This document shows positions 8,067 to 44,429 of a DNA stretch of 64,000 nt, piece by piece. The position numbers and the translations under genes are program-made. The notes beneath the pieces are model-generated. The model searched no databases, was not told the DNA's origin, and was given only the letters and a program-made list of their open reading frames with translations. Origin of the DNA: an uncultured bacterium (lineage in GTDB: Bacteria > Bacillota > Clostridia > Lachnospirales > Lachnospiraceae); assembly GCA_947383005.1 (NCBI GenBank), contig CANDBT010000007.1:62001-126000 (forward strand). The letters run 5' to 3'. Each line of letters opens with the position of its first letter. Position 1 is the stretch's first letter.

Positions 8067-8070
8067 CACT

Positions 8071-11645: not shown

Positions 11646-11665
11646 GAACAAAAAAGGAGCTGCCT

Positions 11666-27490: not shown

Positions 27491-28102
27491 TTAAAATTGA
27501 TACAAATTTTTTATATGCTTTTCCACCTTTTCCCACTGTCTGTCCCGAATGTACTCTGCCGGCACCAGATTATTACCGATTCCCGCGCCGATATATCCTG
27601 CCTCAAGATATTTTCCCACGTTTTGCAAAGAAACGCCCCCCACAGCTACATATTCCGTATGATCAAACGGCCCCTTCAGATTCTTTATGTAGGTAAAGGG
27701 AAAAGCCCCTGCCGGAAACAGTTTTAAAACATGATACCCATATTCCAGGCAAGACGCTACATCTGATGGGGTCATCACGCCAGGAAGGAGCAATATATGG
27801 TTCTCCCTGCAGAACTCCAGTGTGTATTTACTTACCGAGGGTGTGAGAAAAAACTGTGCGCCTGCTTCCCTTGCCATAAGGCACCGTTCTTTTGTGGTCA
27901 CGGTTCCCGCCCCTACCCATGCACGATCACCAAATTTCCTGCGGAGCATGTGAATCTGCTCCCTGGCTGATTCCGAGTTTAAGGCCACTTCAAACAGCCG
28001 GATGCCTCCTTGGTACAATGCCTCTCCGTAATCCGGGAGCTGGTCTGAAGGGATATTTCTGAGAATGGCACAAATTCTGTACTGCTTAAATAATTCTTTC
28101 AT
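27491..28102 (-). CDS. KDPG/KHG aldolase family protein (Eda-like)
   Basis: A 203-residue class I aldolase that would cleave a 2-keto-3-deoxy sugar acid or hydroxy-oxo acid to pyruvate and an aldehyde. Schiff-base Lys127 is in HVLKLFPA, and FEVALNS (Glu38) and VGAGTVTT are family motifs. The position of Arg49 in E. coli Eda (LEVTLRTE) is Asn42 here, which may mean a substrate other than phosphorylated KDPG. The start at 28102 has AGGAGG 4 bp upstream; the much longer frame crosses the neighbouring gene. It is last in the leftward catabolic block. Confidence 0.88.
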   Translation of the reverse strand: MKELFKQYRICAILRNIPSDQLPDYGEALYQGGIRLFEVALNSESAREQIHMLRRKFGDRAWVGAGTVTTKERCLMAREAGAQFFLTPSVSKYTLEFCRENHILLLPGVMTPSDVASCLEYGYHVLKLFPAGAFPFTYIKNLKGPFDHTEYVAVGGVSLQNVGKYLEAGYIGAGIGNNLVPAEYIRDRQWEKVEKHIKNLYQF

Positions 28103-28172
28103 GACTCCTCCTGCCTTTCCTTTTTTGCGCGAATTGTCGAGATTATCTGAATTGTCCGGATTTCCCCGATTC

Positions 28173-29354
28173 TCATTGAATACCTTCATGCAAAAATTCC
28201 CATGCCATATTCGCATAAATCTCCGCAGCCTTTTGATATTGTTCCAAATCAATCCACTCTTCAGGAGAATGGGCGCAGGCAATATCGCCCGGGCCGAACA
28301 CAACTGTGGGAATTCCCCCTTCATTGGTCATGATAGAAGCATCACACCAGAAAGGCACCATACCTGTCTTAAGCTCGCTTCCTCCCACCATTCTGCCTGC
28401 CCTAATCAAGGTTTTTATTACCTTTGACTCTGATTCAATCTCCATGGGAAGCCGCCGCTTTCCGGGACGTTTTTGAATCTCGCTTTCCGATATGGACACC
28501 TGACAGTTTTCATCAATCACCGATGCCGCCGCAGCCCGAATTTCTTCAACTATCTGTTCCAGAGTTTCCCCCGGCAAATCCCGACGCAACAACGTGACAC
28601 GGCAATGTTCCGCCACCACATTTGGTTTCTCTCCGCCTTGGATCAAACCCACATTAAAAATCGGTGTTCCTAAAAGCGGATGCTTTCTCCTTTCGTACTG
28701 CTTCGTAATATCCTCTTCCATAACCCTCAGTACACGCCCCATTTGAAGGATGGCATTTCCCTTGTGATTCTGGCCTGAAGTATGGCCGGGATATCCTGTC
28801 ACCATAATATCAATATGGGAAACACCTCGCATAGCTCTCCCGATCTGCAGCCCGGTAGGTTCCCCTACAATACCTGCATCTGCCTGAATTCCTTGTCCTT
28901 TCAGATACGTGATCAGGCAAGTAGTCCCTCTGCTTAAAAATTCCTCATCCGGAACTGCCGCCACAATCAGGGTTCCGGCTTCCAGCCCTTGGTCTGCCAG
29001 ACGTCTTGCCCCGCAGAGCATCGCCGACAGGCCACCCTTCATATCCACAGAACCCCTTCCAAAAAGCTTGCCCTCCCGAATGGAAGCAGAATAAGGATCT
29101 CCTCGATAATTCTCGACCGGATGTGTATCGGTATGGCCGTTAAAAACCAAAACCGGCCCTTTCTTTTTCCCTTGCAGAATACCAAGAATCAGAGGCTGCC
29201 CTTCTTCTGTCATAACCCTCTTAACCTGCATCCCCACCTGTCTGAATTCCTCTTCCAAGAAATCGGCAATCTGATGTTCACTCCCACTTACGCTGGGAAT
29301 CCGTACCATCTCCTGCAGCAGACGAATCTCCTTTTTTTCCCGATCTATTTCCAT
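28173..29354 (-). CDS. M20-family metallopeptidase/deacylase (ArgE/DapE-like)
   Basis: A 393-residue di-metal hydrolase. Metal ligands are visible: GHTDTH, then GRGSVDMKGG, the catalytic and ligand pair in VPDEEFL, GEPT, and a final His in DIACAHSPEEW. The central part (VTGYPGHTS) is the dimerisation lid. Such enzymes remove acyl groups from N-acyl amino acids or split short peptides. The ATG at 29354 has GGAGG about 10 bp upstream. A second paralogue begins at 38525; both share the VGEPT and LLRRDLPGET segments. Two M20 enzymes in one locus suggest two successive amide cleavages. Confidence 0.9.
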   Translation of the reverse strand: MEIDREKKEIRLLQEMVRIPSVSGSEHQIADFLEEEFRQVGMQVKRVMTEEGQPLILGILQGKKKGPVLVFNGHTDTHPVENYRGDPYSASIREGKLFGRGSVDMKGGLSAMLCGARRLADQGLEAGTLIVAAVPDEEFLSRGTTCLITYLKGQGIQADAGIVGEPTGLQIGRAMRGVSHIDIMVTGYPGHTSGQNHKGNAILQMGRVLRVMEEDITKQYERRKHPLLGTPIFNVGLIQGGEKPNVVAEHCRVTLLRRDLPGETLEQIVEEIRAAAASVIDENCQVSISESEIQKRPGKRRLPMEIESESKVIKTLIRAGRMVGGSELKTGMVPFWCDASIMTNEGGIPTVVFGPGDIACAHSPEEWIDLEQYQKAAEIYANMAWEFLHEGIQ

Positions 29355-29823
29355 TTTCTTTTTGCCTCCTGCCAATTTTGGGTAACAATTCAGATTGCGG
29401 AGCGCCTGACCTGAGGTTGGAACACCAAAGAAGATGCCCCATCCGAACTGTTACGATTTCTTCCCTGTAAATGCGAAATCTGCCTTGATCGAGTAGGGAA
29501 GAGCCATCTTCCCCTACTCGCCGCGCGGCCCGCGCGCCGCTTTAGCGGCATATTCCTCTGTGCGGACCTGTGCATAAAAATCGCGCTTACATCTGTTATC
29601 GCCTTGCGGAAATCCTCTAGTAATCAGCACTCGCTGTTTCTGCAAGGCAGTAACAGTGAATGGATCGTTACTGTTCACACCATGGCTAATCACTCCGCTG
29701 ATTAGCCATGGGCAGATATCATTATGGGAGCAAAGCATATGCCCCATTGCCGAAGGCAATTTATTATGGGCATATGCGGTTACGTTCACAGGGTACCTCT
29801 GAACAGTAACAATGGATCTTCTT
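29355..29823. repeat. 469-bp region of stacked repeats and hairpins
   Basis: It holds a 73-bp TTCAGA-family element (29382-29454), a copy of the GAGTAGGGA repeat (29487-29580), a CCTTGCGGAAAT...TTTCTGCAAGG hairpin near 29605-29647, a perfect hairpin CCATGGCTAATCA-N6-TGATTAGCCATGG (29680-29711), a perfect GCATATGCCC/GGGCATATGC stem with inner ATTGCC-GAA-GGCAAT (29735-29777), and a CTCTGAACAGTAAC end at 29797-29810. No gene. Confidence 0.75.
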
Positions 29824-30987
29824 CTACACATCCGGCAAGCCTTCCACCTGAAAATATCCCAAAATTTCATGGGCAGCGTCCAGAGCCGACGGCGCACATC
29901 CCTGTATAAATTTCCTGCCCTTTCCCTGCTTTCCGGCACAATTCCCCATAAAAATAAGATCGTCGCCAAACAAATCCTCAGGTATCTTCGTTCCTATGAC
30001 AATTTCGATCTTCCGTCGGGGATCCTTTGCAAAAAATCCCATATCTTCCAAACGGCTGATTGTGATAGCCGCACAGCCCATACAGCCGCTGCATGCCTGG
30101 AAATTGCGGATCACAGCCTGTCCGTTGGAAGGCATGGATGGAATGGCTCTCTGAAAATTTCGTTTTACCGCTTGAATCGTCTCTCCAAGGATTTCGATTT
30201 TTTCCATTCCATCCGGGCCGATTCCGTCCTCCATGGCAAATTTAATGTGCTCTATTTTCTTCGGATCAAACCCCATTATAGCAGCCGCTGCCATATCTGC
30301 GGCCAACACATTTTCCCCTGCCAGCACCACACCGAACCCCACCGGTTTTCCTTCTTTGGGTCCAAGCCCTTCTGAAGCGACGGTTCCGTCAATCACAGTC
30401 AAAGAGGTCTTGAATACCCGGTTTAAATCCGCCACGGCCTGATTGACCCCCACATCATGAAATCTTCTCTTTTCTGATGGAGGAATACATCCCTTGAGGT
30501 TTTTCATACCCAGGCTGACCTCCGTTATAAAATGAGTTTTCAGTACCGGAATATTGATGATAACATCGTATTCCAGACACGCCTGATTGATCTTTACCTT
30601 TTCCAGTATTCTGCCGTTTGCTATAGGAATCAGGCGCGTGGGGCCTGAATTCAAGTCAATTATTCCTGCCCCTGTTTTCTCTGCCACCCTTTGGATTCCA
30701 CACCGCTCCATGACCTTATAAGTGCCAATGTGAAGCGAACCTGTCCCATCTCCAACATCTATGATTGAAGCCCCCGCCTCCCAAGCCAGCTCAATCAGTG
30801 CTTCCAGAAGAAAAGGATTTGTAGTCACCCCTTTCTCATAAGAAGCCGGACCTGTCAGGTTTGGTTTCATCAGAACCTTTTGGCCTGGTCTTACAAACCG
30901 TTGCATTCCGCCCAAAAGCTCCAAAGCCTTTGTGACTTGTGCTCGGATATCATTATCCCTAACTACTGCCACTTGATATTTTTCCAT
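29824..30987 (-). CDS. DUF362 domain protein with an iron-sulfur cysteine motif
   Basis: A 387-residue protein of the DUF362 family. Motifs include VLMKPNLTGP near residue 40, VGDGTGSL, NIPVLKTHFITEVSLGMKN, and a C-terminal Cys cluster FQACSGCMGCAA typical of a bound 4Fe-4S centre, plus a later GNCAGKQ. The family's chemistry is not established; members often sit beside catabolic or redox genes. Start set at 30987 because GAGGG lies about 8 bp upstream; an ATG 36 bp earlier is possible. It follows the class V PLP gene in the same direction. Confidence 0.82.
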   Translation of the reverse strand: MEKYQVAVVRDNDIRAQVTKALELLGGMQRFVRPGQKVLMKPNLTGPASYEKGVTTNPFLLEALIELAWEAGASIIDVGDGTGSLHIGTYKVMERCGIQRVAEKTGAGIIDLNSGPTRLIPIANGRILEKVKINQACLEYDVIINIPVLKTHFITEVSLGMKNLKGCIPPSEKRRFHDVGVNQAVADLNRVFKTSLTVIDGTVASEGLGPKEGKPVGFGVVLAGENVLAADMAAAAIMGFDPKKIEHIKFAMEDGIGPDGMEKIEILGETIQAVKRNFQRAIPSMPSNGQAVIRNFQACSGCMGCAAITISRLEDMGFFAKDPRRKIEIVIGTKIPEDLFGDDLIFMGNCAGKQGKGRKFIQGCAPSALDAAHEILGYFQVEGLPDV

Positions 30988-31066
30988 ATTTTCATCCCTC
31001 AAGAATTTTCTGTAATCATCCATCGGATTCTTCTTATCCGACGCAGCCGGGCAAGAAAATTCTATT

Positions 31067-32287
31067 CTAAACCGTTATGACTCTTTTGATAAAAGCTGCC
31101 AGACGGTCGATTTCTTCCTCTCGGATAAACCAATTTAAAGAAATCCGAAGCCCTTCCTCCTTTGTCTCCAAATTCACGACCCTCCATTGGATGATAATCC
31201 GTTCTTCTTCCCAGGCTCGCCTTACCAGTTCTCTATGGTCTTTTCCTGGAATTCTCAGTGCAAAAATGGCGGTCCACAGCCGCTCATCAGAAGGAGAAAG
31301 AATTTTCACCGCCTCTCCCAAGGCTTCCATACGATTCCTGCAATAGCGGTGAAGATGTCTTGTCCTCTCCGTAATGTTATCCATGCCAATGGCATCTGCC
31401 AGCCGTATACACTCCTGGAAAGCGGCATACATCGGTGTATGGCGCCCGCCATATTCAAACCGTCTGGCTCCTGGCTGAAACGAGATTTTATGATCCCTGA
31501 CATCAAAATCCGTCTGCATACCCACTCCGCCAAAAGGTACCCGAACCTTTGGTATCAGGTCTTTGCGGATATAGACTGCCCCGATTCCTTCCGGTCCGCA
31601 CAGCCATTTGTGACAGGACAAAAGATAAAAATCACAAGAAAGTTCTTTTACGTCAATCGGAATATTTCCTGCTGCCTGAGCGCCATCCAATACGGTGATA
31701 ACATTATTCTCTGCCGCCTTTTTACACATTTCCTTTGCCGGGATTGCCGTCCCGTTTGTGTGAAACACATGGCTCACCACTGCCATTTTTGTCTCTGATT
31801 TCAGTTTTTTGCAAAAGTGTTCCAGAATTTCCTCTTTATCTCCCAAACCGCAAAAAGTATCGGTATTAAGCTTTAAAATCGGTTCCGCTGCATAAAAAGG
31901 AAGAATGGAAGCCGGATTTTCCTGATCACTGATTAACACGCTTTCCCCCGGCTGCCACTCAAACATTCGCACGATCGTATTCAGCCCTTCTGCAATGCAA
32001 CGAACAAAAAAGATTTCCTCCGGCTCTGCATGGATGAAAAATGCCACCGATTTTCGGACTTCCTCCAGAAGGTCTTTCAGCCATCCATGGATCTTTACAT
32101 TCACCTGGCCTTCTTCCACCATCTGTTCAAACACACTTTCCATAGATCGGTGAACCGATAACGGCATGGGGCCGCAGCCTGCCGAATTCATATAGATATA
32201 CTTTTCAGCCGCAGGCATTTGCCTGCGGCACAAATCAAAACGCTTTTCCGGCGGCAGCTTTTTCAGTTCTTCTTTTGAAAAAGACAA
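31067..32287 (-). CDS. PLP-dependent class V aminotransferase/lyase
   Basis: A 406-residue fold-type I PLP enzyme. PLP-binding Lys227 is in SCHKWLCGPEG, with Asp201 and Gln204 in LDGAQAAG contacting the cofactor. The whole resembles the isopenicillin N epimerase/cysteine desulfurase-like branch, so it could be a racemase, epimerase, lyase or aminotransferase. The start is a TTG at 32287, with GAGGTG about 7 bp upstream; it overlaps the amidohydrolase gene by 25 bp, a sign of coupling. In context it would act on an amino acid released by the locus's hydrolases. Confidence 0.88.
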   Translation of the reverse strand: MSFSKEELKKLPPEKRFDLCRRQMPAAEKYIYMNSAGCGPMPLSVHRSMESVFEQMVEEGQVNVKIHGWLKDLLEEVRKSVAFFIHAEPEEIFFVRCIAEGLNTIVRMFEWQPGESVLISDQENPASILPFYAAEPILKLNTDTFCGLGDKEEILEHFCKKLKSETKMAVVSHVFHTNGTAIPAKEMCKKAAENNVITVLDGAQAAGNIPIDVKELSCDFYLLSCHKWLCGPEGIGAVYIRKDLIPKVRVPFGGVGMQTDFDVRDHKISFQPGARRFEYGGRHTPMYAAFQECIRLADAIGMDNITERTRHLHRYCRNRMEALGEAVKILSPSDERLWTAIFALRIPGKDHRELVRRAWEEERIIIQWRVVNLETKEEGLRISLNWFIREEEIDRLAAFIKRVITV

Positions 32288-33504
32288 ACTCTCTCACCTC
32301 TTTTCATCACAAAAACAACTTCTCCCAAATTCAACATGGAATCCAAAGGGTTTTTCTTTACTGCCAGAATATCTGCCTGTTTGCCCGCCTCCAAAGAACC
32401 TGCCCATGAATCGATTCCTAATACTTTTGCCGCTTTCCAGGTAGCGCCAGCCAGTACATCTTCCTTTTTCATGTTCATTTTGCCACACATCATGTCAAGG
32501 GTAAGATAAAATTCATCAAAGTGCGTATTTTTACAACCTGCATCTGTGCCTGCTACGATCTGCACCCCGGACTCGGCCATCCGTCTTGTCGTGCTAAAAC
32601 GGCTTTGTTGAAATTCTCCCCACATGGCAATCTTATCCGGCAATGGCGCCGCCTCTTCCGGAGGAAGGATATATGCCTTGCCAACAGCCGGGTTGACAGC
32701 AATTCCTTTTTTTACCATCTCATCCACCAAAGCCTGTTGGTAATCCTCTCCGCCCGGAGATTTAAAACTGCAGTGATCCAACACATCAAACCCAGCTCTC
32801 ACAGCCCGCCGGATACTTTCCGTGCTGTGTACATGGCCAGATACTTTTTTCCCTCTGGCATGAGCCTCTTGTACAATTGCTATCAGGGTATCTTCCGGAT
32901 ACTGATCAATCAGAGAATCACTCCCCGGAGTCATATTCCCTCCGGAAACCATGACCTTGATATAATCCACCCCCTGTTTGCACAACCATCGAACCGCCTT
33001 GATAACATCATCCCGGGAATCACATTCCAAACCGCAAAAATTGCAATGGCCGCCGGTGATCGTCAAAGGCATTCCCGCCGTAATGATATCCGGCCCTTGC
33101 ATTTCTCCCTTTTGGATAAAATCCCTGAGCTTCAAAATGGACATTCCCCTGGCGCCGCTGTCACGCACCGTAGTCACTCCGCTCCTCAGCTCTATTCCGG
33201 CAGCCTGAACCATCCGAAGCAGACAGGTTTCATCACTGTCGCCATACAATTCATTTAAAGGCTGACTGCTGGAACTGAAGGAAAGATGGAGATGGCCGTC
33301 AATCAGCCCTGGCAATACATAATATCCTCTCATATCAAAAACTTCCGCTTCGTTTCTTCTGATTATTTCGGCAAAAAAATCCCTGTCTTCAATCCGGACG
33401 ATCTTCCCTTCCTGAACCAGAATCCCCTGCTCTTTTCCCGATTCCTGGATCCGCTCTCCTGCGCAGGAAATCAGATGATCTGTCAATATCAATTTTTTAT
33501 CCAC
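32263..33504 (-). CDS. Amidohydrolase (imidazolonepropionase/prolidase-like)
   Basis: A 413-residue metal-dependent amidohydrolase. The metal site is complete: HLH at residues 71-73 in GLIDGHLHL, a Lys in YIKVMVSGG likely to be carboxylated, His in VSGHVHS, His in DVLDHCSFK, and Asp in GTDAGC. The subgroup with VMVSGGNMTPGS includes Xaa-Arg/Lys dipeptidases and similar secondary-amide hydrolases. It starts at GTG 33504 with GAGGTGG upstream. It overlaps the class V PLP gene, supporting a shared pathway. Confidence 0.88.
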   Translation of the reverse strand: MDKKLILTDHLISCAGERIQESGKEQGILVQEGKIVRIEDRDFFAEIIRRNEAEVFDMRGYYVLPGLIDGHLHLSFSSSSQPLNELYGDSDETCLLRMVQAAGIELRSGVTTVRDSGARGMSILKLRDFIQKGEMQGPDIITAGMPLTITGGHCNFCGLECDSRDDVIKAVRWLCKQGVDYIKVMVSGGNMTPGSDSLIDQYPEDTLIAIVQEAHARGKKVSGHVHSTESIRRAVRAGFDVLDHCSFKSPGGEDYQQALVDEMVKKGIAVNPAVGKAYILPPEEAAPLPDKIAMWGEFQQSRFSTTRRMAESGVQIVAGTDAGCKNTHFDEFYLTLDMMCGKMNMKKEDVLAGATWKAAKVLGIDSWAGSLEAGKQADILAVKKNPLDSMLNLGEVVFVMKRGERVCLFQKKN

Positions 33505-33581
33505 TTTCTATCCACCTCTTCCTCTCATCGGATATGATATACTTTTGGAGCTTCTCCTGCATCTCAACAATTTTTTCGTCA
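33505..33581. other. Short gap before repeat
   Basis: Holds the ribosome binding site of the amidohydrolase gene; no other feature seen. Confidence 0.3.
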
Positions 33582-33930
33582 TTCAGACAGCGGGAAATTG
33601 ACAGGAATGCTGGCTTACAAGCAAGCTTGACGCCCGCATTTATGTCAAATCCTCCGCCGTTCAGACGGTATCTTCTTGACCGCCTGCGGCGGCCAAGAAG
33701 CATCGGATGTTCATCCGATGGGGAAATTGACAGGAATGCTGGCTTACAAGCAAGCTTGACGCCCGCATTTATGTCAAATCCTCCGCCGTTCAGACGGTAT
33801 CTTCTTGACCGCCTGCGGCGGCCAAGAAGCATCGGATGTTCATCCGATGGGGAAATTGACAGGAATGCTGGCTTACAAGCAAGCTTGACGCCCGCATTCA
33901 TGTCAATTTCCCCGCCGTCTGAATGGTTAC
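33582..33930. repeat. TTCAGA-family element expanded by a perfect 129-bp tandem repeat
   Basis: Units start at 33595, 33724 and 33853 (period 129); the first two are identical and the third is partial. Each contains AAATTGACAGGAATGCTGG, the core CTTACAAGCAAGCTTGACG, and a TTCAGACGG/CTTCTTGACCGCC...CCAAGAAG hairpin. The element ends CCCCGCCGTCTGAATGGTTAC. The period equals 43 codons, so an open frame of 134 codons runs through it by chance. Confidence 0.8.
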
Positions 33931-33931
33931 G

Positions 33932-34678
33932 TTACATCATCGGCGGTAGCGATGAGTAGCTGAGCAGCTCAATAGCTTTATCTACATGTTTTTGGCCATC
34001 GGTCATAATCAGTCGGTAATGAGAGGGAATCAGGGCATCAATCCCTCTTCCTGCTAACTTATGGATATTATTCCGATAGCCTTCCATGGTAGAGCCGTAA
34101 CAGTTAATCAAACTTAATACCCCGTTTAAGTAAATGCTGTCACCGCTGAACAAATACCGTTTTTCTCCCTTATCCAACAGATATAGCGCCGATTCCACAC
34201 TGTGTCCCGGCACCAGCACAACGGTAATCTTGCCGTCTGCCGCAAAAAAACATTGCTCATCCTCTGCTGTCAGGTCCACCCGGCAGTGAGGATATACGTA
34301 GTCTTTCGGGTAGGCCCCTTTTTTCTTTGCTGCCACAAGTCCCAGTTCTTCCTCACTTCCTTGTTCCAAAAGCCTTTTTTCACCGGAAGATGCTACTATA
34401 GTGATCCATGGCATAGCCGCCTTTAAGTCTTTGACGCCGCCTCCGTGGTCTCCATGGGCATGGGTCAAAAAAAGATAACGGATTTTTTTCTGATCACATC
34501 CTGTCTCTAAAATATTTTGCAAAATCCACCCCGTATCCAGACCGCTTCCCCCATCAATCAAAAAAGCATCCTTCTCCCCTTCAACCAGGTATACATTGCA
34601 GTCTTTATAATTGGAAATTCCCGGGCCACCCGCCCCGCCTCCTACCATATAAATTCCCTTATCCAGACGAATATACAT
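33932..34678 (-). CDS. MBL-fold metallo-hydrolase
   Basis: A 248-residue metallo-beta-lactamase-fold enzyme. The zinc motif THAHGDH (His73, His75, Asp77, His78) is followed by His in VPGHSVESALYL, Asp in LFSGDSIY and His in IPSHYR. The branch is of general thioester, lactone or phosphodiester hydrolases. The ATG at 34678 has AGGAGG 7 bp upstream. Transcribed with ridA and the TRAP genes. A lactonase or thioesterase step is possible but not shown. Confidence 0.88.
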   Translation of the reverse strand: MYIRLDKGIYMVGGGAGGPGISNYKDCNVYLVEGEKDAFLIDGGSGLDTGWILQNILETGCDQKKIRYLFLTHAHGDHGGGVKDLKAAMPWITIVASSGEKRLLEQGSEEELGLVAAKKKGAYPKDYVYPHCRVDLTAEDEQCFFAADGKITVVLVPGHSVESALYLLDKGEKRYLFSGDSIYLNGVLSLINCYGSTMEGYRNNIHKLAGRGIDALIPSHYRLIMTDGQKHVDKAIELLSYSSLPPMM

Positions 34679-34695
34679 CACATTACCTCCTATTT

Positions 34696-34785
34696 GCCCT
34701 GCTCTTTGGGCATCCAGGTACACCCGAAGGGTGTTTCCTCTTTACTCGCCCTGCTCTTTGGGCATCCAGGTACACCCGAAGGGTG
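34696..34785. repeat. Perfect 38-bp direct repeat forming two hairpins each
   Basis: Copies at 34696-34733 and 34748-34785 (period 52) each contain GCCC...GGGC and the perfect hairpin CACCC-GAA-GGGTG. It lies between ridA and the MBL gene inside the operon, so it would appear in the message as four small hairpins. Confidence 0.75.
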
Positions 34786-34786
34786 C

Positions 34787-35257
34787 TTACTCTTTCTTTA
34801 ACTCCACAATCATTTCAATCTCCACCGGTGTTCCGAAAGGAAGCTCATTAGTCCCCAAGGCCGCTCTGGCATGCTTTCCGTTTTCCCCAAAAAGTGAAAT
34901 CAGCAGTTCGGAAGCCCCGTCTATCACAAAGGGCTGCTCGCCAAATCCAGGCGCGCTTGCCACAAATCCCAGCACCTTCACAATTCGTTTTACCTGATCC
35001 AGATCGCCGATACTGTATTTTAAAGCCGCCAGACAGTTGCACATGGCCTGTCTTGCACATTCCTTCCCTTGCTCCACAGTCACTTCGCTCCCTAATTTGC
35101 CTTTATAAAGAAGCTTTCCATCCTTTTTGCAATCCTGCCCGGACACGTAAACCAAACTCTCCGCAAACCTTACGGAAGGCTGATAAGCGGCAACCGGCCT
35201 GGGCGCCTCCGGAAGTATAATTCCCAATTCCTCCAGTCTTTTTTCTGTCTTTGTCAT
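34787..35257 (-). CDS. RidA family protein (enamine/imine deaminase)
   Basis: A 156-residue YjgF/YER057c/UK114-type protein, similar in length to the longer YjgF-like subgroup. It contains VRFAESLVYVSGQD, the substrate-contact region ARAALGTNELPFGTPVEIEM and a central CNCLAALK helix. RidA proteins hydrolyse reactive enamine/imine intermediates made by PLP-dependent dehydratases and lyases, releasing ammonia. The conserved Arg in the usual R(A/S)xVGV position appears as ARAALGT. Two PLP enzymes in this locus could make its substrate. Confidence 0.9.
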   Translation of the reverse strand: MTKTEKRLEELGIILPEAPRPVAAYQPSVRFAESLVYVSGQDCKKDGKLLYKGKLGSEVTVEQGKECARQAMCNCLAALKYSIGDLDQVKRIVKVLGFVASAPGFGEQPFVIDGASELLISLFGENGKHARAALGTNELPFGTPVEIEMIVELKKE

Positions 35258-35281
35258 ATTTTCTCGTCCCCTTTTCTCTCC

Positions 35282-37104: not shown

Positions 37105-37172
37105 CAGCACTCACTCCTTTTATTCTGAAACAGCAGGGGACAACAAAAACGCTGCCCCCTATATCCTTTTCC

Positions 37173-38285
37173 TTATTTTCCAATAGCCTGAACCCGATCA
37201 TATAATTCCGTGGAGATGGTTTTTCCGTCGCCAATAAACTTGGGAACAATCTGGCCGGCTGCTTCCAGCCACAACTTCTGATCCTCCGCGGTAGGCTCGT
37301 ACACCGTCACTCCCTGCTCTCTCATCTGGTCGGCTACTCCGTCCACATCTTTTTCATTCAACTCTCTCTTAATCTTTTCCGACTCTTTCGACGCTTTGAT
37401 TACTGCCTGGAAAAGTTCTCCGTCCACGCCGCCCAAGGCGTCCACGGCTCCGGAACTGATCACCCTCACCGACGGTCCGAAGGACAGGGTCAATATGGTG
37501 GCATATTTTGCCACTTCAGTAAAGTTGTTGGTATAAGCCGGCACCGGGCCTGCATATACACCGTCTACCGTTCCCTGCTCCAGGCCGGTATAAAGCTCTT
37601 GCCAGGCCATAGGCGTAGCGCCAATCCCGCAGGCTTCATATAAAGCCATCTCTATTTCCGAACCCGTGGTGCGAATCTTTAAATTATAGGCATCCTGGGG
37701 AACCTTCACTTCCCGTTTGGTATTAAACAGCCATCTTGCCGCTCCTCCATCCACATCAAAAGTCACCGGATAACAGCCAATCTCTTCATAAACTTGTGCC
37801 GCAAGCTCATCTCTCAGATCGGAAGCCAGCACCTCATACACATGGTCCGTATCCCTGAACATTCCCGGAAAATCGCAAAAATCCAACACATGGCAAAATT
37901 CAGAAAGATTAGCTGTAGAACATTTTGCCATCTCCAAAGTATTCGCCATACAAGCCTGCACCACATCTCCATCTGATCCCAACTGACCAGCCGGATAATA
38001 TTCGATCTTCACCTGGCCATTGGTATAAGTATTTACCAACTCAATAAACTTTTGGTTTGCCTCATACTCGGCTGTCCCGTCAACCGCCGCATCACCCCAT
38101 TTTAACACGATAACATCCTTCGGCTCCTCTGCTTTCTCCGACGCTGCCGGTTCTGCCGCCTGTGTGCCCGAATCACCCTGTGCCGGAGCTGCCGTCTCTT
38201 TGGGAGCCTCCTTCCCGGAAGCACATCCCGTCAATCCTGTCACTACCATAGCCGCCGCCAGCAATAATGCAATCTGCTTCTTCAT
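37173..38285 (-). CDS. dctP: TRAP transporter substrate-binding lipoprotein (DctP family)
   Basis: A 370-residue lipoprotein with lipobox LTGC (Cys21), an Ala/Glu/Pro-rich linker to about residue 55, and a DctP-type binding fold. Typical motifs are YYPAGQLGSDGDVVQA, LKIRTTGSEIEMALYEA and the long hinge helix near the end. The Arg in LKIRTTGS is the residue that usually binds the ligand's carboxylate, so an organic or amino acid-like anion is expected. It is first in the leftward operon and has its own promoter with an overlapping inverted repeat. Confidence 0.92.
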   Translation of the reverse strand: MKKQIALLLAAAMVVTGLTGCASGKEAPKETAAPAQGDSGTQAAEPAASEKAEEPKDVIVLKWGDAAVDGTAEYEANQKFIELVNTYTNGQVKIEYYPAGQLGSDGDVVQACMANTLEMAKCSTANLSEFCHVLDFCDFPGMFRDTDHVYEVLASDLRDELAAQVYEEIGCYPVTFDVDGGAARWLFNTKREVKVPQDAYNLKIRTTGSEIEMALYEACGIGATPMAWQELYTGLEQGTVDGVYAGPVPAYTNNFTEVAKYATILTLSFGPSVRVISSGAVDALGGVDGELFQAVIKASKESEKIKRELNEKDVDGVADQMREQGVTVYEPTAEDQKLWLEAAGQIVPKFIGDGKTISTELYDRVQAIGK

Positions 38286-38338
38286 TTTTACTCCTCCTTG
38301 AATGTAAATAAGAACTATCATCTATGTTTCCTAATTCA

Positions 38339-38385
38339 AGGATAATTCAAACATGACTTTTTGTCAATATTAAACTGACAAAAAA
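38339..38385 (-). promoter_or_regulatory. Promoter of the leftward TRAP operon with overlapping operator
   Basis: On the minus strand TTGACA (38367-38362), a 17-bp spacer and TATCCT (38344-38339). The inverted repeat TTTTTGTCA-N9-TGACAAAAA (38358-38384) covers the -35 hexamer, the usual position of a repressor site. A further TTTGTCAA half-site lies at 38498-38505 just after the divergent promoter. Confidence 0.7.
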
Positions 38386-38448
38386 TCTTATATTTTTTCT
38401 CTTTTCAACAATTATTTTTCGATTTAAAAAGATTTTTTTACTTTTCTG

Positions 38449-38477
38449 TTGATTTTTATGTTTCAATACATTATAAT
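38449..38477 (+). promoter_or_regulatory. Promoter of the rightward peptidase operon
   Basis: TTGATT (38449-38454), a 17-bp spacer and TATAAT (38472-38477). The start point would fall near 38484, about 40 bp before the first ATG, with a TTTGTCAA half-site in the leader. Confidence 0.7.
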
Positions 38478-38524
38478 TCGTTTATGAAACAAGATAATTT
38501 GTCAATTTTGAAAGGAGATTGCCC

Positions 38525-39721
38525 ATGCACCTTACACAGGAACAGAAAAATTTTGTCTCCGCAGAAGAAACCATACACTTATTGCAGAAACTGGTTCGGA
38601 TTCCCAGCATAAATGGACAAGAAGAAGCCATCGGCCAGTATCTCCATCAATATTTTCAAAACCTGGGCTGGGAAAGCGCCCTCTACGAAGTAGAACCTCA
38701 CCGTCCTGCTGTAGTTGCCCTTCTCCATGGGAAGCGCCCGGGTAAAACGTTAATGTTCACCACCCATTACGACACTCATGTTGTCGACAATATGGAAATC
38801 CCTCCCTTTACGCCGGAAATCCGCAATTCTTTCCTATACGGAAGAGGAAGCTGCGATGCAAAGGGTTCTATTGCCGCCATGATTATGGGAGCGATGGTCT
38901 TATCCCGCATGGAAAAAAACTTTTCCGGCGACTTGATGCTTGCCTTTGTTCCGGATGAAGAATATCTGAACAAAGGGACTACCTGGCTTATGGAACATGG
39001 CATCACAGCCGACATGGCCGTTGTGGGAGAGCCTACCAGAATGGCCGTAGGCTTCGGCCACCGGGGCTGTACTCACCTGGATATTATTACCAAAGGAAAA
39101 GCTTATCACAGCGCTTATCCGGAAAAAGGAATCAATGCCATTGAAAAAATGGCTATGGTCATCACCCATTTACGCAGGGATTTCTTCCCTTCTTACGAAA
39201 AGAAGACCCATCCCTTCCTGGGTCATCCGGTAATCAACCTGGGAGTAATCACCGGCGGAACCAGAATCCACACCGTTGCCGATTCCTGTGTAGCATCTTA
39301 TTTAAGACGGGATCTTCCGGGAGAGACTACGGAACAGATTTTAGAAGAGATACAGGAATATCTGGATACGTTGAAAGAACTGGATTCACAGCTTCTGGCA
39401 GAAGTCAGGCTCAGCACCATCCAGCAAAGAATCCGTCTGCCTTATTTTATCGATCCGGATCATCCCCTGGTTCTTGCCATGGCAGACAGCTATCTTTCTA
39501 TAACGGGAAAAGAAGCGAAAAAGTCCGTGATGAACTATTATTGTGACGCCAGTATTCTCTGCACTGAACATGGCATACCCACCATTATTTTCGGCCCTGG
39601 CGATATTCATGTGGCTCATTCTTCCCTGGAATATATTGGGATTAAAGATCTTTGTGATGCCGCTTATATTTATGCCGACTTTGCCCTTTCCCTTTTAGGA
39701 GAAAACGGAGACCATTTATGA
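38525..39721 (+). CDS. M20-family metallopeptidase/deacylase, second paralogue
   Basis: A 398-residue di-metal hydrolase. Metal ligands appear in TTHYDTH, GRGSCDAKGS, VPDEEYL, VGEPT and DIHVAHSSLEY. It is related to, but clearly diverged from, the M20 enzyme encoded at 28173-29354. The ATG at 38525 follows AAAGGAG by 7 bp. Its stop overlaps the next start by 4 bp. Probably cleaves an N-acyl or peptide bond after TRAP import. Confidence 0.9.
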   Translation: MHLTQEQKNFVSAEETIHLLQKLVRIPSINGQEEAIGQYLHQYFQNLGWESALYEVEPHRPAVVALLHGKRPGKTLMFTTHYDTHVVDNMEIPPFTPEIRNSFLYGRGSCDAKGSIAAMIMGAMVLSRMEKNFSGDLMLAFVPDEEYLNKGTTWLMEHGITADMAVVGEPTRMAVGFGHRGCTHLDIITKGKAYHSAYPEKGINAIEKMAMVITHLRRDFFPSYEKKTHPFLGHPVINLGVITGGTRIHTVADSCVASYLRRDLPGETTEQILEEIQEYLDTLKELDSQLLAEVRLSTIQQRIRLPYFIDPDHPLVLAMADSYLSITGKEAKKSVMNYYCDASILCTEHGIPTIIFGPGDIHVAHSSLEYIGIKDLCDAAYIYADFALSLLGENGDHL

Positions 39722-40824
39722 CAGAAGAACGACTGAAAAAGACAGAACTTTTCATGGCTGCCTGCGGAATCAATGTCCTGCTGGCCTGCCATCCCAAAAA
39801 TGTTTATTACTTATCCGGCTTTGCCACCTCTGCCCGCCCCTATTGGCAGATCAAGCAGACCTGCTGCCTGATCTTTCCCGATGGGTCCCGGTTTTTAATT
39901 CTTCCTGCCCCATGGGCACAGGAAAACATTGCGGTAGGTCCCGGCTTTGAAGTGATGGAATATTCGGGAGAAACGGAAGACTGCGCCCGGACTGTCGCTT
40001 CTCTGCTTTCCCGTCAGTCCGGAGCAAAGGTAGGCGCGGATCTTACCTGGATGAGCACTCCTTTTTTCCGTGCCCTGGCAAAGGAACTGCCCCACACGCT
40101 CCTTCTGGATGAACATCCTGTCCTGGCATGGTGCCGGATGATTAAAGACCCCCTGGAGATAGAAGCTTTGTATGCAGCCGGAAAAATCAGTGATTGCGCA
40201 TTGAAGAAAGCCCGCGATCTGATCACCTGCGGCAAGGAAGAACAGGACATCCAGTCCGCCTTGAACAGTCTGATGATTGCTAAAGGTTCTATGGGCCAGG
40301 GATTTACCACTAAAGTCATTTCCGGTATTAACGGAAGCCTTCCCCACCATATGTCCGGCTCCTGGCAAATTCGGGAAAAAACGGCTACCATTGTAGATTT
40401 GAGCGCTACAGTACGTTTTTACGAGTCTGACAGCGCCAGAACGTACCTGACTGGAGGCCCTATACCGGAGCTTTCCGACATTCATCAGGGAATTTGCGAA
40501 ATTTTAGAAAAATTGCCGCAAAAGCTATATCCCGGAGTTCCCATTAAAGAAATCGACAGCTTTATCCGAAAAGAACTGTCACAAATCCGTCCTGATGCCA
40601 TGCAGGCAGGAACTATCGGCCACGGAGTGGGCCTTCAAGCCCATGAGTATCCGGATATTTCTCCTGACAGCCCGGAACTTCTTCAGGAAAATATGGTCCT
40701 CGCAATAGAACCGGCCCTTTATCTGCCGGGACACTGGGGAGTCAGAATTGAAAATATGTTCCATATCCGCAGCTCTCATGCAGATATCATGAACGGATTG
40801 GAGGCATCCTATGGAAATCGATAA
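39718..40824 (+). CDS. M24-family Xaa-Pro aminopeptidase-like hydrolase
   Basis: A 368-residue pita-bread metallopeptidase with an N-terminal creatinase-like domain. All five metal ligands can be placed: Asp in TIVDLSATV, Asp in YESDSART, His in GHGVGLQAHEYP, Glu in LAIEPALY and Glu in RIENMFH. The family includes prolidases, Xaa-Pro aminopeptidases and creatinases. It starts by ATGA overlap with the M20 gene and overlaps the next gene by 14 bp. In context it would hydrolyse an imino-peptide or guanidino-like bond in the imported compound. Confidence 0.9.
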   Translation: MTEERLKKTELFMAACGINVLLACHPKNVYYLSGFATSARPYWQIKQTCCLIFPDGSRFLILPAPWAQENIAVGPGFEVMEYSGETEDCARTVASLLSRQSGAKVGADLTWMSTPFFRALAKELPHTLLLDEHPVLAWCRMIKDPLEIEALYAAGKISDCALKKARDLITCGKEEQDIQSALNSLMIAKGSMGQGFTTKVISGINGSLPHHMSGSWQIREKTATIVDLSATVRFYESDSARTYLTGGPIPELSDIHQGICEILEKLPQKLYPGVPIKEIDSFIRKELSQIRPDAMQAGTIGHGVGLQAHEYPDISPDSPELLQENMVLAIEPALYLPGHWGVRIENMFHIRSSHADIMNGLEASYGNR

Positions 40825-41950
40825 AAAACCAGGAATTTATGAAGAACTGGGAGTTCCCCGTGTCATCAACGCCATGGGAACCTACACGATCTATGGCGGC
40901 TCAAAAATGAGCCGCCAGACGATACAGGATATGAATGATGCTGCCTCATCTTTTGTTGACCTGAACCTGCTTCAAAAAAGGGCTGGGGAAGCCATCGCCA
41001 GGCTGACAAAGAATGAAGCTGCCTATATCTGTAACGGAGCCGCCGCAGGCATCTATCTGGGGCTTTTAGCTGCCGTCGCCCTGCATCGCGGAAAAAAAAT
41101 ACGTTATCTGGCCAGACAGGATTTCCATGACAGCGAAATCGTTGTCTTCCGCTCCCACCGCAGCCCTTATGACATTATCCTCGACCAATTGGGAGTTTCC
41201 ATCGTAGAACTGGCCTATTCCAATCACACACTTGTCTCTCCAAAAGAAGATATCGAAGCCGTAATCTCTGAGCGAACGGCTGCCATCTATTTTCTGGAAT
41301 CCGGCTGGGTCGCTCCCGGCGCCCCTTCTCTGGAACTGACGGCATCTGTGGCGAAAAAACACCAACTGCCGGTTATCCTGGATGCCGCCGCCATGCTGCC
41401 TCCTGCTGACAATCTGTGGAATTTTACAAAAGCAGGGGCGTCCCTTGCTGTCTTCAGCGGTGGAAAAGATCTGTGCGGCCCCCAGGCCAGCGGCCTGATT
41501 GTCGGGCGAAAAGACCTGATTGACCTTCTGCTGGAATCCGCTTTCCCGAAACATGGTTATGGAAGGTTCCTGAAAGTCGGAAAAGAAGAGATAGCCGGAC
41601 TTTATTCCGCCCTTTGCCAGTATCTTTCCGCCGACATGGGCAGCCGGATTCAAGATGCGGAAGACCAGGTAGAATCTGCCTGTCGGCTCCTCAATGATCA
41701 TCCTTATTATCTGGCTGCAAGAAGCTATCCCAACGAAGCCGGACAACCAATCCCCCGGGTACTGGTTAAAATCCGCAACGCTCAGACCGATGAACAACAG
41801 GTTCTAAACTATTTATCTGCATTGACACCGCCGGTAATCGCTGCTGCTGCGGGAAAACAGAGCTTTTATTTAAATCCCATGACTTTGACAAAAGCAGAAA
41901 TGGAATGGATCTGCCATCAGCTTCTTAAATTTCCCTTTGTCCAACATTAA
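40811..41950 (+). CDS. SelA-like PLP-dependent enzyme (DgaE-type lyase family)
   Basis: A 379-residue fold-type I PLP enzyme of the SelA-like group, which includes D-glucosaminate-6-phosphate ammonia-lyase and other beta-eliminating enzymes. Cofactor Lys219 is in VFSGGKDLCGPQASG, Asp191 in VILDAAAMLPP, and the N-terminal VINAMGTYTIYGGSKM is typical. The ATG at 40811 lies inside the M24 gene and has GGAGG 6 bp upstream. Ammonia elimination from a polar amino acid would yield an enamine suited to the RidA encoded in the divergent block. Confidence 0.85.
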   Translation: MEIDKKPGIYEELGVPRVINAMGTYTIYGGSKMSRQTIQDMNDAASSFVDLNLLQKRAGEAIARLTKNEAAYICNGAAAGIYLGLLAAVALHRGKKIRYLARQDFHDSEIVVFRSHRSPYDIILDQLGVSIVELAYSNHTLVSPKEDIEAVISERTAAIYFLESGWVAPGAPSLELTASVAKKHQLPVILDAAAMLPPADNLWNFTKAGASLAVFSGGKDLCGPQASGLIVGRKDLIDLLLESAFPKHGYGRFLKVGKEEIAGLYSALCQYLSADMGSRIQDAEDQVESACRLLNDHPYYLAARSYPNEAGQPIPRVLVKIRNAQTDEQQVLNYLSALTPPVIAAAAGKQSFYLNPMTLTKAEMEWICHQLLKFPFVQH

Positions 41951-41984
41951 CAGCAAAATCCCAATAGAAAGGAGTCCTCAGTCT

Positions 41985-42824
41985 ATGTACAAAATTGGTT
42001 GCATCGGCCATGCCGGACGTCATGGCGAATTTTTTTCCCGGCTTTTCAACCGGGAACAATTGTTTGACGGTTATCGGTTTTCTTATGTCTTCGGAGAAGA
42101 TGAAGAATTATCCGCAGAAGAAAAAAATCAGCGTTTTTATCATGTAGATGCCTATTGTTCCACGGCAGACGAACTGATTGAAAAATCGGATGCCGTGATG
42201 ATTCTGACCATTGCAGGAGAAAGCCATCTTCCCTATGCCCTGAAAGCTATCAAAGCCGGCAAGCCGGTATTTGTGGACAAACCCTTTGCCGCTGCCTATG
42301 ATGATGCAAAGGCCATCACGGAAGCCGCACGCGCTTATCGTGTTCCGCTTTTTGGCGGTTCCACCCTGCGGCATCTGAAAAAGCTGGATGAAATCCGACA
42401 GCTCATGAAAGAAGAATACTTCCCTTTCGTTTCCATTGCCTACCGGGCTGACCCGGAGAGCCCTCTGGGGCTTTATCACTACTACGCCAGCCATATCGCC
42501 GAAATTTGTATGTCCCTGTGCGGAACCGACTACCGGGATATCACGGTCAGCCGAAATGAAAAGAACGTTTGCACAGTAGTAAAATATCCCCACTGCAGCG
42601 CAGTACTGATGACCACCTTGGATACGGAGCTGGTCAATATCCATCTTATAGGTAAAAAATCATATTCCTTTGACTTAAATCAGGATGGATGCTATATTGA
42701 TGGTGCTACCAAATTTATCCAAATGCTCAAAACCGGCCAGCCGCCAGTGCCATATGAAGAATATTGTCAATCTGTCCGGCTTATTCAGGATATCACCCGC
42801 AAGATGGGCGCCCTGGCCTGGTAA
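41985..42824 (+). CDS. Gfo/Idh/MocA-family oxidoreductase
   Basis: A 279-residue NAD(P)-dependent dehydrogenase-like protein. The Rossmann start is IGCIGHAGRHGEFF, less regular than the usual GxGxxG, and the catalytic EKP tripeptide is DKP here (FVDKPFAA). Residues 120-279 form the substrate domain. It is shorter than typical members (about 330-350). The ATG at 41985 has GGAG upstream. Possibly oxidises an alcohol or amine group in the pathway. Confidence 0.8.
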   Translation: MYKIGCIGHAGRHGEFFSRLFNREQLFDGYRFSYVFGEDEELSAEEKNQRFYHVDAYCSTADELIEKSDAVMILTIAGESHLPYALKAIKAGKPVFVDKPFAAAYDDAKAITEAARAYRVPLFGGSTLRHLKKLDEIRQLMKEEYFPFVSIAYRADPESPLGLYHYYASHIAEICMSLCGTDYRDITVSRNEKNVCTVVKYPHCSAVLMTTLDTELVNIHLIGKKSYSFDLNQDGCYIDGATKFIQMLKTGQPPVPYEEYCQSVRLIQDITRKMGALAW

Positions 42825-42867
42825 TGACATGCAAAAATAATGTGCGAAAGAAAATGAGGAGGAACCC

Positions 42868-43620
42868 ATGAACCTGATCTATGACAACTGGGCTATATGG
42901 CAGAAACTGCTTACCATGCTCGAAAACCAGTTTGGAACAAAAAGTGAATTTATCCTTCATGATCTGACAAAGGATTATAACCATACCATTGTTGATATCC
43001 GGAACGGCTATATCACCAACCGAAAAATTGGCGACTGCGGTTCCAACCTGGGACTGGAGGTTTTACGAGGCACGGTCAAAGACGGAGACCGATACAACTA
43101 TATCGTAAATACCCGGGACGGAAAGCTACTGCGTTCCTCTACCATGTTTATCTACGACGACCAGGGAAAAGCCATCGGCAGTCTCTGCATAAATACAGAC
43201 ATTACGGAAACGGTTCACTTTGAAGAATATCTGCGTCAATATAACCAATATAACCTGCCTACTACTGCCAATCCCATAACACCGGCCGCCACTTTGGCTT
43301 CATCGCAGGAAAGACAGACCCCCGGAACCCAATCCGGCCCGGAAATCTTTGCCAATGATGTATCCCAAGTTCTGGATTTCTTAATTACAGAAGCCGGAAA
43401 ACTGGTGGGAAAACCGGTAAGCCGGATGAATCGGGAAGACAAAATCAAATTTGTCCGTTATCTGGATCAGAAAGGCGCTTTTTTAATCACCAAAGCATCA
43501 GAAAAAGTCTACGAACATTTAAATATTTCCCGATATACCTTATATAATTATCTGGATTTAATTCACAAAGAAGCAAATGGGACAAATTCATCACCTGAAC
43601 AGGAGGAAGAAAAATCATGA
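42868..43620 (+). CDS. YheO/DauR-like regulator (PAS_6 plus helix-turn-helix)
   Basis: A 250-residue regulator. Residues 1-115 form a YheO-like PAS domain (SEFILHDLTKDYNHTIVDIRNG, then GSLCINTDIT). A Pro/Thr/Gln-rich linker leads to a C-terminal helix-turn-helix (EKVYEHLNISRYTLYNYLDL). DauR, a repressor of D-arginine use in Pseudomonas, has the same architecture. It is the only regulator gene in the catabolic locus and is the best candidate for the TTTTTGTCA-N9-TGACAAAAA site. AGGAGG lies 5 bp before the ATG; the stop overlaps the next start. Confidence 0.85.
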   Translation: MNLIYDNWAIWQKLLTMLENQFGTKSEFILHDLTKDYNHTIVDIRNGYITNRKIGDCGSNLGLEVLRGTVKDGDRYNYIVNTRDGKLLRSSTMFIYDDQGKAIGSLCINTDITETVHFEEYLRQYNQYNLPTTANPITPAATLASSQERQTPGTQSGPEIFANDVSQVLDFLITEAGKLVGKPVSRMNREDKIKFVRYLDQKGAFLITKASEKVYEHLNISRYTLYNYLDLIHKEANGTNSSPEQEEEKS

Positions 43621-44429
43621 ATATGGCTTATATAGAAAAAATCTTTTCTCTGGACGGGCGCAAAGCCGTGGTCACGGGCGCCAGCTCAGGAATCGGACGT
43701 GCTATCGCCATATCACTGGCAAATTTCGGCGCCGAGGTTGCCTTGCTAGGGCGTTCTGCCGACGGCCTTCGCATCACCCATGAAGCCATCGCCGCAAATG
43801 GCGGTGTCTGTGAAGATTATATCGTTGATATATCAGACACAGATAGCCAGGATCGGTTTTTCCATGCTTACATGGAAAAACATGGACGGATGGACATCTT
43901 TATTGCCAATGCCGGCATCAACCGCCGTGCGGAACTGCCGGATGTAGCTTTGGAAGATATCCATGCTCTTTTGAAAACCAACTATGTGGGAACCCTTTTT
44001 GGCATGATCCAGGCATCCAATATCATGAAACGGCAGCATTCCGGCAACATCGTAGTTATCACATCCATTAACGGATTGAGTCCCTTGATCAATCAGGCCA
44101 TATATTCCAGCATCAAATCCGGCCTGGAAAGCGCCATGCGCAGTATGGCCGGAAGTATGGCCGAATATGGCGTCCGGGTTAATAGTTGCGCCCCTGGCTG
44201 TGTCCATTCCGCCGGCAATCAGCATATTTTCTCCATAGAGGAATTTCGTAAAGCCAAAGAAGCCAGCATACCACTGGGAAAAATCGGCAATCCGGAAGAT
44301 ATCGGAAACGTCGTGGCTACCATGGTAAGCGATGCTTACTGCTTCATGACCGGCTCTACCATTTTAGTAGACGGCGGAGAATTGCTGCGCCCAAAACAAA
44401 AGCAGCCTCAAACAGAGACAGTAAAATAA
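43617..44429 (+). CDS. SDR-family oxidoreductase
   Basis: A 270-residue short-chain dehydrogenase/reductase. The nucleotide motif TGASSGIG is at residues 20-27, NAG at about 95-97, the catalytic Ser in ITSINGLSP and Tyr/Lys in IYSSIKSG. The family's C-terminal PLGKIGNPEDIGN is present. It reduces or oxidises a carbonyl/alcohol with NAD(P)(H). It overlaps the regulator gene by 4 bp and is the last gene of the rightward operon. Confidence 0.92.
   Translation: MNMAYIEKIFSLDGRKAVVTGASSGIGRAIAISLANFGAEVALLGRSADGLRITHEAIAANGGVCEDYIVDISDTDSQDRFFHAYMEKHGRMDIFIANAGINRRAELPDVALEDIHALLKTNYVGTLFGMIQASNIMKRQHSGNIVVITSINGLSPLINQAIYSSIKSGLESAMRSMAGSMAEYGVRVNSCAPGCVHSAGNQHIFSIEEFRKAKEASIPLGKIGNPEDIGNVVATMVSDAYCFMTGSTILVDGGELLRPKQKQPQTETVK

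Follow-up and report, generated by a model that had tools for sequence, protein, structure and literature searches.

A conserved sixteen-gene cassette from a Lachnospiraceae bacterium and its possible role in the oxidative catabolism of N-acylated amino sugar acids

We analyzed a stretch of 64,000 nucleotides from an uncultured Lachnospiraceae bacterium (assembly GCA_947383005.1, contig CANDBT010000007.1, positions 62,001 to 126,000), referred to here as the window. Sixteen genes at positions 27491 to 44429 make up a cassette that, by sequence comparison, is a discrete conserved unit. We read it as a regulated, oxidative, Entner-Doudoroff-like pathway for the catabolism of an N-acylated 2-amino-2-deoxy sugar acid of the aldonate type, and we put the probability of this reading at slightly under one half. 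Every step proposed below is drawn from protein family and gene context.

Ten of the genes lie on the minus strand, from dctP (starting at 38321) down to eda, and six lie on the plus strand, starting with M20b at 38519; the divergent blocks are parted by a shared control region of 197 bp (38322 to 38518). A preliminary description of this DNA had named these sixteen genes and families in two blocks around one control region, and all of them were confirmed, by open reading frame calls on the window and by matches to TIGRFAM/NCBIfam (TIGR and NF numbers) and Pfam models. Cut-offs mentioned below are those of the models themselves, and genes are on the minus strand unless marked plus.

In the proposed route, the acid would be imported by a tripartite ATP-independent periplasmic (TRAP) transporter, of which the complete set is encoded side by side: the solute receptor DctP (37173 to 38321; NF037995, E = 5.6e-47, above cut-off), the small permease DctQ (36565 to 37110; PF04290, E = 2.9e-23), and the large permease DctM (35282 to 36598; TIGR00786, E = 1.4e-117). 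A metallo-beta-lactamase (MBL)-fold hydrolase, a candidate lactonase (33932 to 34723; PF00753, E = 1.5e-21), may open the acid where it is present as a lactone or an ester. The N-acyl or N-aminoacyl group would be taken off by an amidohydrolase, AmdH, a candidate de-N-acylase that resembles Xaa-Pro dipeptidase and arginine carboxypeptidases (32263 to 33504; NF051886, E = 1.8e-64, under cut-off), and in this strain also by two ArgE/DapE-type amide hydrolases, M20a (28173 to 29375; TIGR01910, E = 1.1e-67, above cut-off) and M20b (38519 to 39721, plus; TIGR01910, E = 8.5e-74, above cut-off), and by M24, of the Xaa-Pro peptidase/creatinase type (39718 to 40824, plus; PF00557, E = 3.5e-38; PF01321, E = 1.7e-15). 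A pyridoxal 5'-phosphate (PLP) enzyme would then eliminate the C3 hydroxyl from the freed 2-amino acid. The class V (fold-type I) enzyme is the candidate beta-eliminating ammonia-lyase of the core (31067 to 32287; PF00266, E = 2.2e-53), to which this cassette adds a SelA/DgaE-like enzyme distinct from DgaE, a candidate ammonia-lyase for an unphosphorylated 2-amino acid (40811 to 41950, plus; TIGR01437, E = 1.7e-54, under cut-off). The released enamine or imine would be hydrolyzed by a RidA/YjgF protein (34787 to 35257; PF14588, E = 1.8e-22; PF01042, E = 2.6e-13) to a 2-keto-3-deoxy acid. This acid would be cleaved to pyruvate and an aldehyde by Eda, an aldolase of the 2-keto-3-deoxy-6-phosphogluconate (KDPG) type (27491 to 28108; TIGR01182, E = 1.1e-50, above cut-off), with prior phosphorylation by a 2-keto-3-deoxygluconate (KDG)-kinase-like enzyme in four of the eight loci compared below. 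A start of eda near 28108 is more likely than one at 28324, because the latter would overlap M20a. A Gfo/Idh/MocA-type oxidoreductase, in which the NAD domain alone was recognized (41937 to 42824, plus; PF01408, E = 8.2e-12), and a short-chain dehydrogenase/reductase (SDR; 43617 to 44429, plus; PF13561, E = 5.4e-51) could widen the substrate range by redox chemistry or epimerization, and a DUF362 protein with a LarA-like predicted fold and conserved cysteines (29824 to 31023; PF04015, E = 1.7e-50) might act on a chain hydroxyl by epimerase or hydride chemistry. The YheO-like protein with PAS and HTH_22 domains (42868 to 43620, plus; PF08348, E = 8.3e-31; PF13309, E = 3.4e-20) is likely the regulator.

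Conservation and spread of the cassette

A genome of the same genus, G585, carried all sixteen genes with order and orientation kept and with 65 to 93% protein identity. When the window was compared by blastn with the entire 46,137-base G585 contig, DNA similarity spanned 27503 to 44428, with gaps, and there were no matches between the two outside that span. Among the 23 remaining frames of the G585 contig, one matched the window, at 17072 to 17641, with 28% protein identity. Since the flanks do not match, the cassette probably occupies different sites in G585 and in the window's own genome (G000; 4.99 Mb, with the window in contig G000:C7). The left edge was weakly tested, because the G585 cluster begins 925 bases from the contig end and the comparison there covers 0.9 kb.

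A search with the class V enzyme found five carriers among 24 genomes of the genus, G000 included. We then scanned the genome_contigs collection, described as covering 84,980 species with one genome apiece, with an alignment of five class V sequences, which yielded 64 loci, 6 of them at 57 to 81% identity and 58 at no more than 35%. The 6 higher-identity loci, the locus of genome G599, and the window make up the eight distinct loci considered here. L035 and L036 belong to uncultured Lachnospiraceae and L037 to an uncultured Clostridium sp.; bacteria D16-56 and 1XD21-70, unclassified at NCBI, are also among the carriers. YheO, AmdH, DctP, DctQ, DctM, MBL, DUF362, and the class V enzyme were present in all eight loci, and RidA and Eda were each present in seven, genome G586 matching neither. 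The regulator of the other seven loci was 65 to 85% identical to that of the window.

The whole cassette was found in the window and G585, and the six other loci hold a smaller core, which is the left block minus M20a plus YheO. M20a, M20b, M24, the SelA-like enzyme, the Gfo/Idh enzyme, and the SDR had orthologues in the window and G585 alone among the eight loci, and are accessory. The preliminary description had proposed the two M20 proteins and the SelA-like protein as anchors for neighborhood searches, a role to which this distribution does not suit them. Its treatment of both blocks as one locus describes the window and G585 well, but the blocks are not an obligate pair. A reading in which two unrelated pathways, the core left block and the right block (M20b, M24, SelA-like, Gfo/Idh, and SDR), have one regulator in common would account for the lack of right-block enzyme orthologues in the six smaller loci. 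We regard it as improbable, given that the window and G585 hold both blocks as one unit with nonmatching flanks and one control region, and that the gene of the core regulator YheO lies within the right block.

Relatives of single components were sparse. In G599, a single partial SDR match (32% identity) lay about 11 kb from the core. Two consecutive Gfo/Idh/MocA genes stand downstream of Eda in L035 (13253 to 15397) and L037 (14757 to 16737), too divergent to match that of the window. At an E value of 1e-30, SelA-like matches occurred in 7 of 200 genomes of the family, with at most 42% identity except for the window's own. At 1e-50, DUF362 relatives occurred in 3 of 391 genomes of the class in a single-sequence search and in 6 of 392 of the order in a profile search, G000 being counted in both; a DUF362 search of a plasmid collection gave four records at 27 to 35% identity. 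We found no account of this cassette in the open-access papers searched.

The control regions of all eight loci contain the motif A[CT]AAAAAAT[CT]TTA once each, and in the 64-kb window its single match is the one at 38378 to 38390. A 10-mer was common to seven of the eight control regions, and in 500 shuffles none produced a 10-mer common to at least seven. The relatedness of the loci, and the fact that the pattern was composed with the sequences in view, make the motif a candidate element only. In the window and G585 it is oriented differently with respect to dctP than in the core loci.

Enzyme evidence and competing substrates

In AmdH, H71, H73, K183, H224, H244, and D321 were invariant in all eight loci, as were H88, H90, D92, H93, H174, D195, and H235 in the MBL protein and R217 in DctP; the arginine of the RidA HARAA motif and the KLFPA motif of Eda were kept in all seven orthologues. 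The PDB relatives of DctP gave no basis for naming its ligand. The six AmdH residues, the HxHxDH motif with H174, D195, and H235 in the MBL protein, KLFPA in Eda, the RidA arginine, and K227 of the class V enzyme are what we take to be the catalytic or metal-binding residues, and all are in place. The best PDB relatives of AmdH include Xaa-Pro dipeptidase and arginine carboxypeptidases, and the window encodes three more hydrolases of amides or peptides, both of which would suit the scavenging of dipeptides or N-acyl amino acids. AmdH, M20, and M24 would then cleave imported conjugates, the class V enzyme would beta-eliminate a Cys- or Ser-linked group in the manner of a cysteine-S-conjugate beta-lyase to give 2-aminoacrylate, which RidA would clear, and Eda and the kinase would process the released part. 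The alignment of the class V enzyme over its length to an L-cysteine/cystine C-S lyase also fits such chemistry. However, a KDG-kinase-like gene in four loci and a KDPG-type aldolase in seven are sugar-acid functions, and the DgaE-like enzyme suggests a 2-amino sugar acid as substrate; overall we consider scavenging rather unlikely, though deserving of some weight.

The class V enzyme can be aligned with SufS, but the loop with the desulfurase catalytic cysteine is missing from the window protein and its seven orthologues. The loop was kept in all 12 desulfurase-type relatives that were aligned (14 of the 58 low-identity loci were tried, and L056 and L078 gave no frame). A cysteine desulfurase of the SufS/NifS type was ruled out by the missing loop. 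Alignment of the cystine lyases 1elq and 1n2t spans almost the entire class V profile, and the top six SufS matches end at profile positions 320 to 352. The AlphaFold model of the enzyme, with a mean predicted local distance difference test (pLDDT) score of 63.3, was too poor for a fold search. From sequence, the activity is likely that of a beta-eliminating lyase or an epimerase.

The SelA-like enzyme falls in the DgaE neighborhood, scoring under the cut-offs of both models (TIGR01437, 185.1 versus 385.3 bits; NF047797, 151.6 versus 600). Its SGGK motif aligns with K213 of 7lc0. Of the DgaE phosphate-site arginines, R301 alone is kept, R332 and R346 being replaced by alanine and methionine, and the His162/163 pair is lost. 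With such scores and without the His pair, R332, and R346, DgaE proper was ruled out. These four residues are missing from the proteins of the window, G585, L015, L016, and L017, and the genes lie near TRAP genes in the window and G585 and near ABC permeases in L015, L016, and L017 (on the opposite strand in L017). The relatives that keep the His pair and arginines, L018 to L021, adjoin phosphotransferase system (PTS) or PRD-regulator genes: sorbose/mannose-type PTS genes in L021, and PRD-domain regulators in L018, L019, and L020, the last also with HPr and enzyme I. Docking of DgaE puts the phosphate near these arginines, and the product released by an H163A variant is the enamine rather than the imine, as described in the portions of PMC9529869 consulted. 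The loss of Arg332, Arg346, and the His pair thus predicts an unphosphorylated substrate and would explain the RidA partner, which fits the SelA-like enzyme because loss of His163 in DgaE releases the enamine form. The residue pattern offers a direct sequence test of phosphorylated versus unphosphorylated substrates. Two further arrangements were seen in this family. In L017 (genome G046, 9000 to 11945), a YheO-type regulator 62% identical to that of the window directly precedes a non-DgaE SelA-like gene and an EF_0837-type amidohydrolase, and in L018, L019, and L020 the DgaE-type genes adjoin a transporter-like set of small membrane proteins.

A PfkB kinase sits between the class V enzyme and Eda in G599, L035, L036, and L037 but not in the window, and the best-scoring models for all four kinases were those of KDG or 2-keto-3-deoxygalactonate (KDGal) kinase, under cut-offs. 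What we presumed to be the phosphate-binding serine of Eda is an asparagine in the window and variable among orthologues. Its use as an indicator that the substrate is phosphorylated was dropped, the pattern not being clean. The missing kinase in the other four loci would agree with a route from a hydroxy amino acid, for example from hydroxyproline or hydroxyglutamate peptides, to 4-hydroxy-2-oxoglutarate (KHG) or a similar short keto acid, which needs no phosphorylation. The Eda family does include KHG aldolases, and AmdH and M24 are prolidase-like. Against this stand the KDG/KDGal-type kinases and the assignment of no proline or pyrroline dehydrogenase family among the sixteen genes, and we judge such a route quite improbable.

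The preliminary description had inferred import, hydrolysis, deamination, and a split to pyruvate. A unit with an importer, amide hydrolases, ammonia-lyase-type PLP enzymes with RidA, and an aldolase agrees with that outline, in which the substrate and the catalytic steps are themselves inferred. Between the substrates it had offered, an N-acyl or peptide-linked amino acid or an amino sugar acid, we favor the amino sugar acid because of the KDG-kinase-like gene in four of the eight loci, the relationship to DgaE, and the slots analogous to those of the ong cluster discussed below. Several observations weigh against an oxidative amino-sugar-acid pathway. AmdH is nearest, among PDB relatives, to the dipeptidase and carboxypeptidases and not to sugar deacetylases, and 8ztp, a chain named cysteine desulfurase, reaches position 384 of the class V profile, almost its whole length. 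No orthologue of the kinase was found elsewhere in G000, G585, G586, or G601, only PfkB relatives at 24 to 27% identity, and therefore a phosphorylated end does not apply to the route in general. Variation at the Eda phosphate-site residue does not follow the presence of the kinase, and near the core of G586 no match to RidA, the kinase, or Eda was found. The proposed route does not explain the role of DUF362, and the evidence does not single out an acyl group, a stereochemistry, or a chain length.

The DUF362 protein and other features of the locus

The AlphaFold model of the DUF362 protein (pLDDT 81.9) was searched with Foldseek against the PDB, and the top 19 matches were all of the LarA superfamily (E = 6.8e-8 to 6.5e-5, best probability 1.00), with template modeling scores of only 0.35 to 0.43 and root mean square deviations of 10 to 17. 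On this model, the predicted fold is LarA-like. DUF362 and LarA belong to one Pfam clan, CL0471, and DUF362 served as an outgroup in the part of PMC11770544 consulted, the only open-access paper that we found to treat DUF362 together with the nickel-pincer nucleotide (NPN); DUF362 was not found in PMC11796402. In LarA, H108, H174, K184, and H200 bind the NPN or catalyze, with Lys184 tethering the NPN, His200 as a Ni ligand, and His174 catalytic, according to PMC7583248. All four were invariant in seven LarA-like proteins of the genus. The DUF362 proteins of the module conserve H164, K174, and H189, spaced by 10 and 15 residues versus 10 and 16 in LarA. Among 35 further DUF362 members (28 of the 30 PF04015 loci retrieved and 7 homologues), H164 and K174 were each present in 34 and H189 in all 35, the exception being L154, apparently a wrong-frame pick. 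Position 98, the closest to H108 (the first catalytic His of LarA), was His in all eight module proteins and in 1 of the 35 others. An hhalign comparison placed H164 and K174 in register with LarA at a nonsignificant P of 0.05 to 0.12.

The protein also has a CxxC pair and two more conserved cysteines, the pairing of the first cysteines being alignment dependent. The preliminary description had called it an iron-sulfur protein; these cysteines are compatible with that, but Pfam calls no ferredoxin domain, so that the cluster is inferred.

In G000, larB, larC, and larE are adjacent. LarC occurred in all five carriers, yet also in 20 of the 24 genus genomes, so that its presence in carriers was set aside as uninformative about an NPN role. 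Across 61 genomes of the phylum, LarC was found in 34 of 49 with DUF362 versus 3 of 12 without, a co-occurrence driven by DUF362 proteins with a long insert (28 of 33 versus 9 of 28). Among LarA-negative genomes, LarC accompanied long-insert DUF362 in 10 of 11 versus 3 of 18, and DUF362 of all types in 11 of 18 versus 2 of 11 (P = 0.052). The DUF362 type of the window, which lacks the long insert, had no association with LarC (6 of 16 versus 3 of 12 genomes), and a LarC match was missing in 8 of 32 LarA-positive genomes, which counts against a simple LarC reading. In one genome (L183, G945:C7), a DUF362 gene with an inserted 4Fe-4S motif pair (5753 to 6856) is directly followed on the same strand by larC (7107 to 8369) and a larB-like gene with an AIRC domain (8411 to 9160). 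DUF362 homologues outside the module (L013, L014, and L116 to L120) had no common pathway neighbors, only a weak SDR (L116 and L117) and an MBL protein (L117).

From motif and model, an NPN role for the window protein is possible. The fuller proposal, that the module protein is an NPN enzyme, carries in addition a cysteine motif of the iron-sulfur type, and would epimerize or redox-isomerize an amino sugar acid in a new oxidative pathway, and that the DUF362 family would be a second NPN branch accounting for genomes with LarC and without LarA, is speculative, and we think it unlikely. If true, the link to LarA would give the widespread DUF362 family a testable cofactor.

Some features of the DNA touch none of these proteins. 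A tandem repeat with a 129-bp unit (33592 to 33918; 2.5 copies, 97% match) lies in the gap between AmdH and MBL, which is short in G585, and is no part of the pathway. The gap between M20a and DUF362 (29376 to 29823) is 448 bp versus about 30 bases in G585 and contains a perfect 13-nt inverted repeat at 29680 to 29711. A Clostridiales-1 small RNA (RF01699, 110.1 bits) lies at 49577 to 49749.

Comparison with known systems

Three known systems and one further locus resemble parts of the cassette. The DUF362 protein is like the LarA superfamily of nickel-pincer hydroxyacid racemases and epimerases in its CL0471 clan, predicted fold, and His-Lys-His motif, and unlike it in the extra conserved cysteines. 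Like the DgaE system, the cassette has a SelA-like PLP enzyme of the DgaE neighborhood together with a KDPG-type aldolase; it differs in having no PTS gene among the sixteen, in the addition of RidA and amide hydrolases, and in the nonconserved His162/163, Arg332, and Arg346. Locus L015 of genome G149 fills similar slots with other families, namely a SelA-like enzyme, an SDR, two RidA proteins, a 7-bladed lactonase, a deacetylase-type amidohydrolase, an RraA-like aldolase, a GlcNAc-2-epimerase family protein, and an ABC permease. In the open-access papers searched, we did not find KDG, a TRAP transporter, and RidA treated together in one paper.

The closest parallel in function is the ong cluster of Gammaproteobacteria, for oxidative chitin and GlcNAc1A catabolism, in which 2-acetamido-2-deoxygluconate is converted to KDG-6-phosphate by a deacetylase, a PLP deaminase, and a KDG kinase, and a RidA-family protein is essential, as far as the consulted text of PMC9537276 describes it. 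The cassette shares with that description slots for a transporter, an amidohydrolase-superfamily deacetylase, a PLP deaminase, RidA, a KDG kinase (in four of the eight loci), an aldolase end, and a dedicated regulator, as well as the order of functions proposed here, ong deacylating and deaminating before phosphorylation. The families differ. On the same partial account, the ong transporter is a sodium/solute symporter (SSS) rather than TRAP, its regulator is MurR/RpiR rather than YheO, and MBL, DUF362, M20, M24, Gfo/Idh, and SDR have no ong counterpart; the window, unlike ong, has no kinase. OngB is a subtype V amidohydrolase of the D-aminoacylase type with a Cys/His/His site in the passages of PMC12017989 consulted, and AmdH, with its six invariant residues, is not of that type. 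The ong set of PLP deaminase, RidA, KDG kinase, and amide deacetylase is filled, by other families, in the four loci with the kinase.

The preliminary description had recognized no described pathway in this gene set; ong, as far as described, has the same order of functions, but its enzyme families are different. The cassette is thus not an ong cluster, and by analogy it is reasonable to suggest that it works like one. The breakdown of oxidized amino sugars has been worked out in chitin-degrading Gammaproteobacteria. If the reading is true, a Lachnospiraceae-type genus would have reached an independent solution with other enzymes in the slots, which would extend this chemistry to another phylum and show the value of such acids there.

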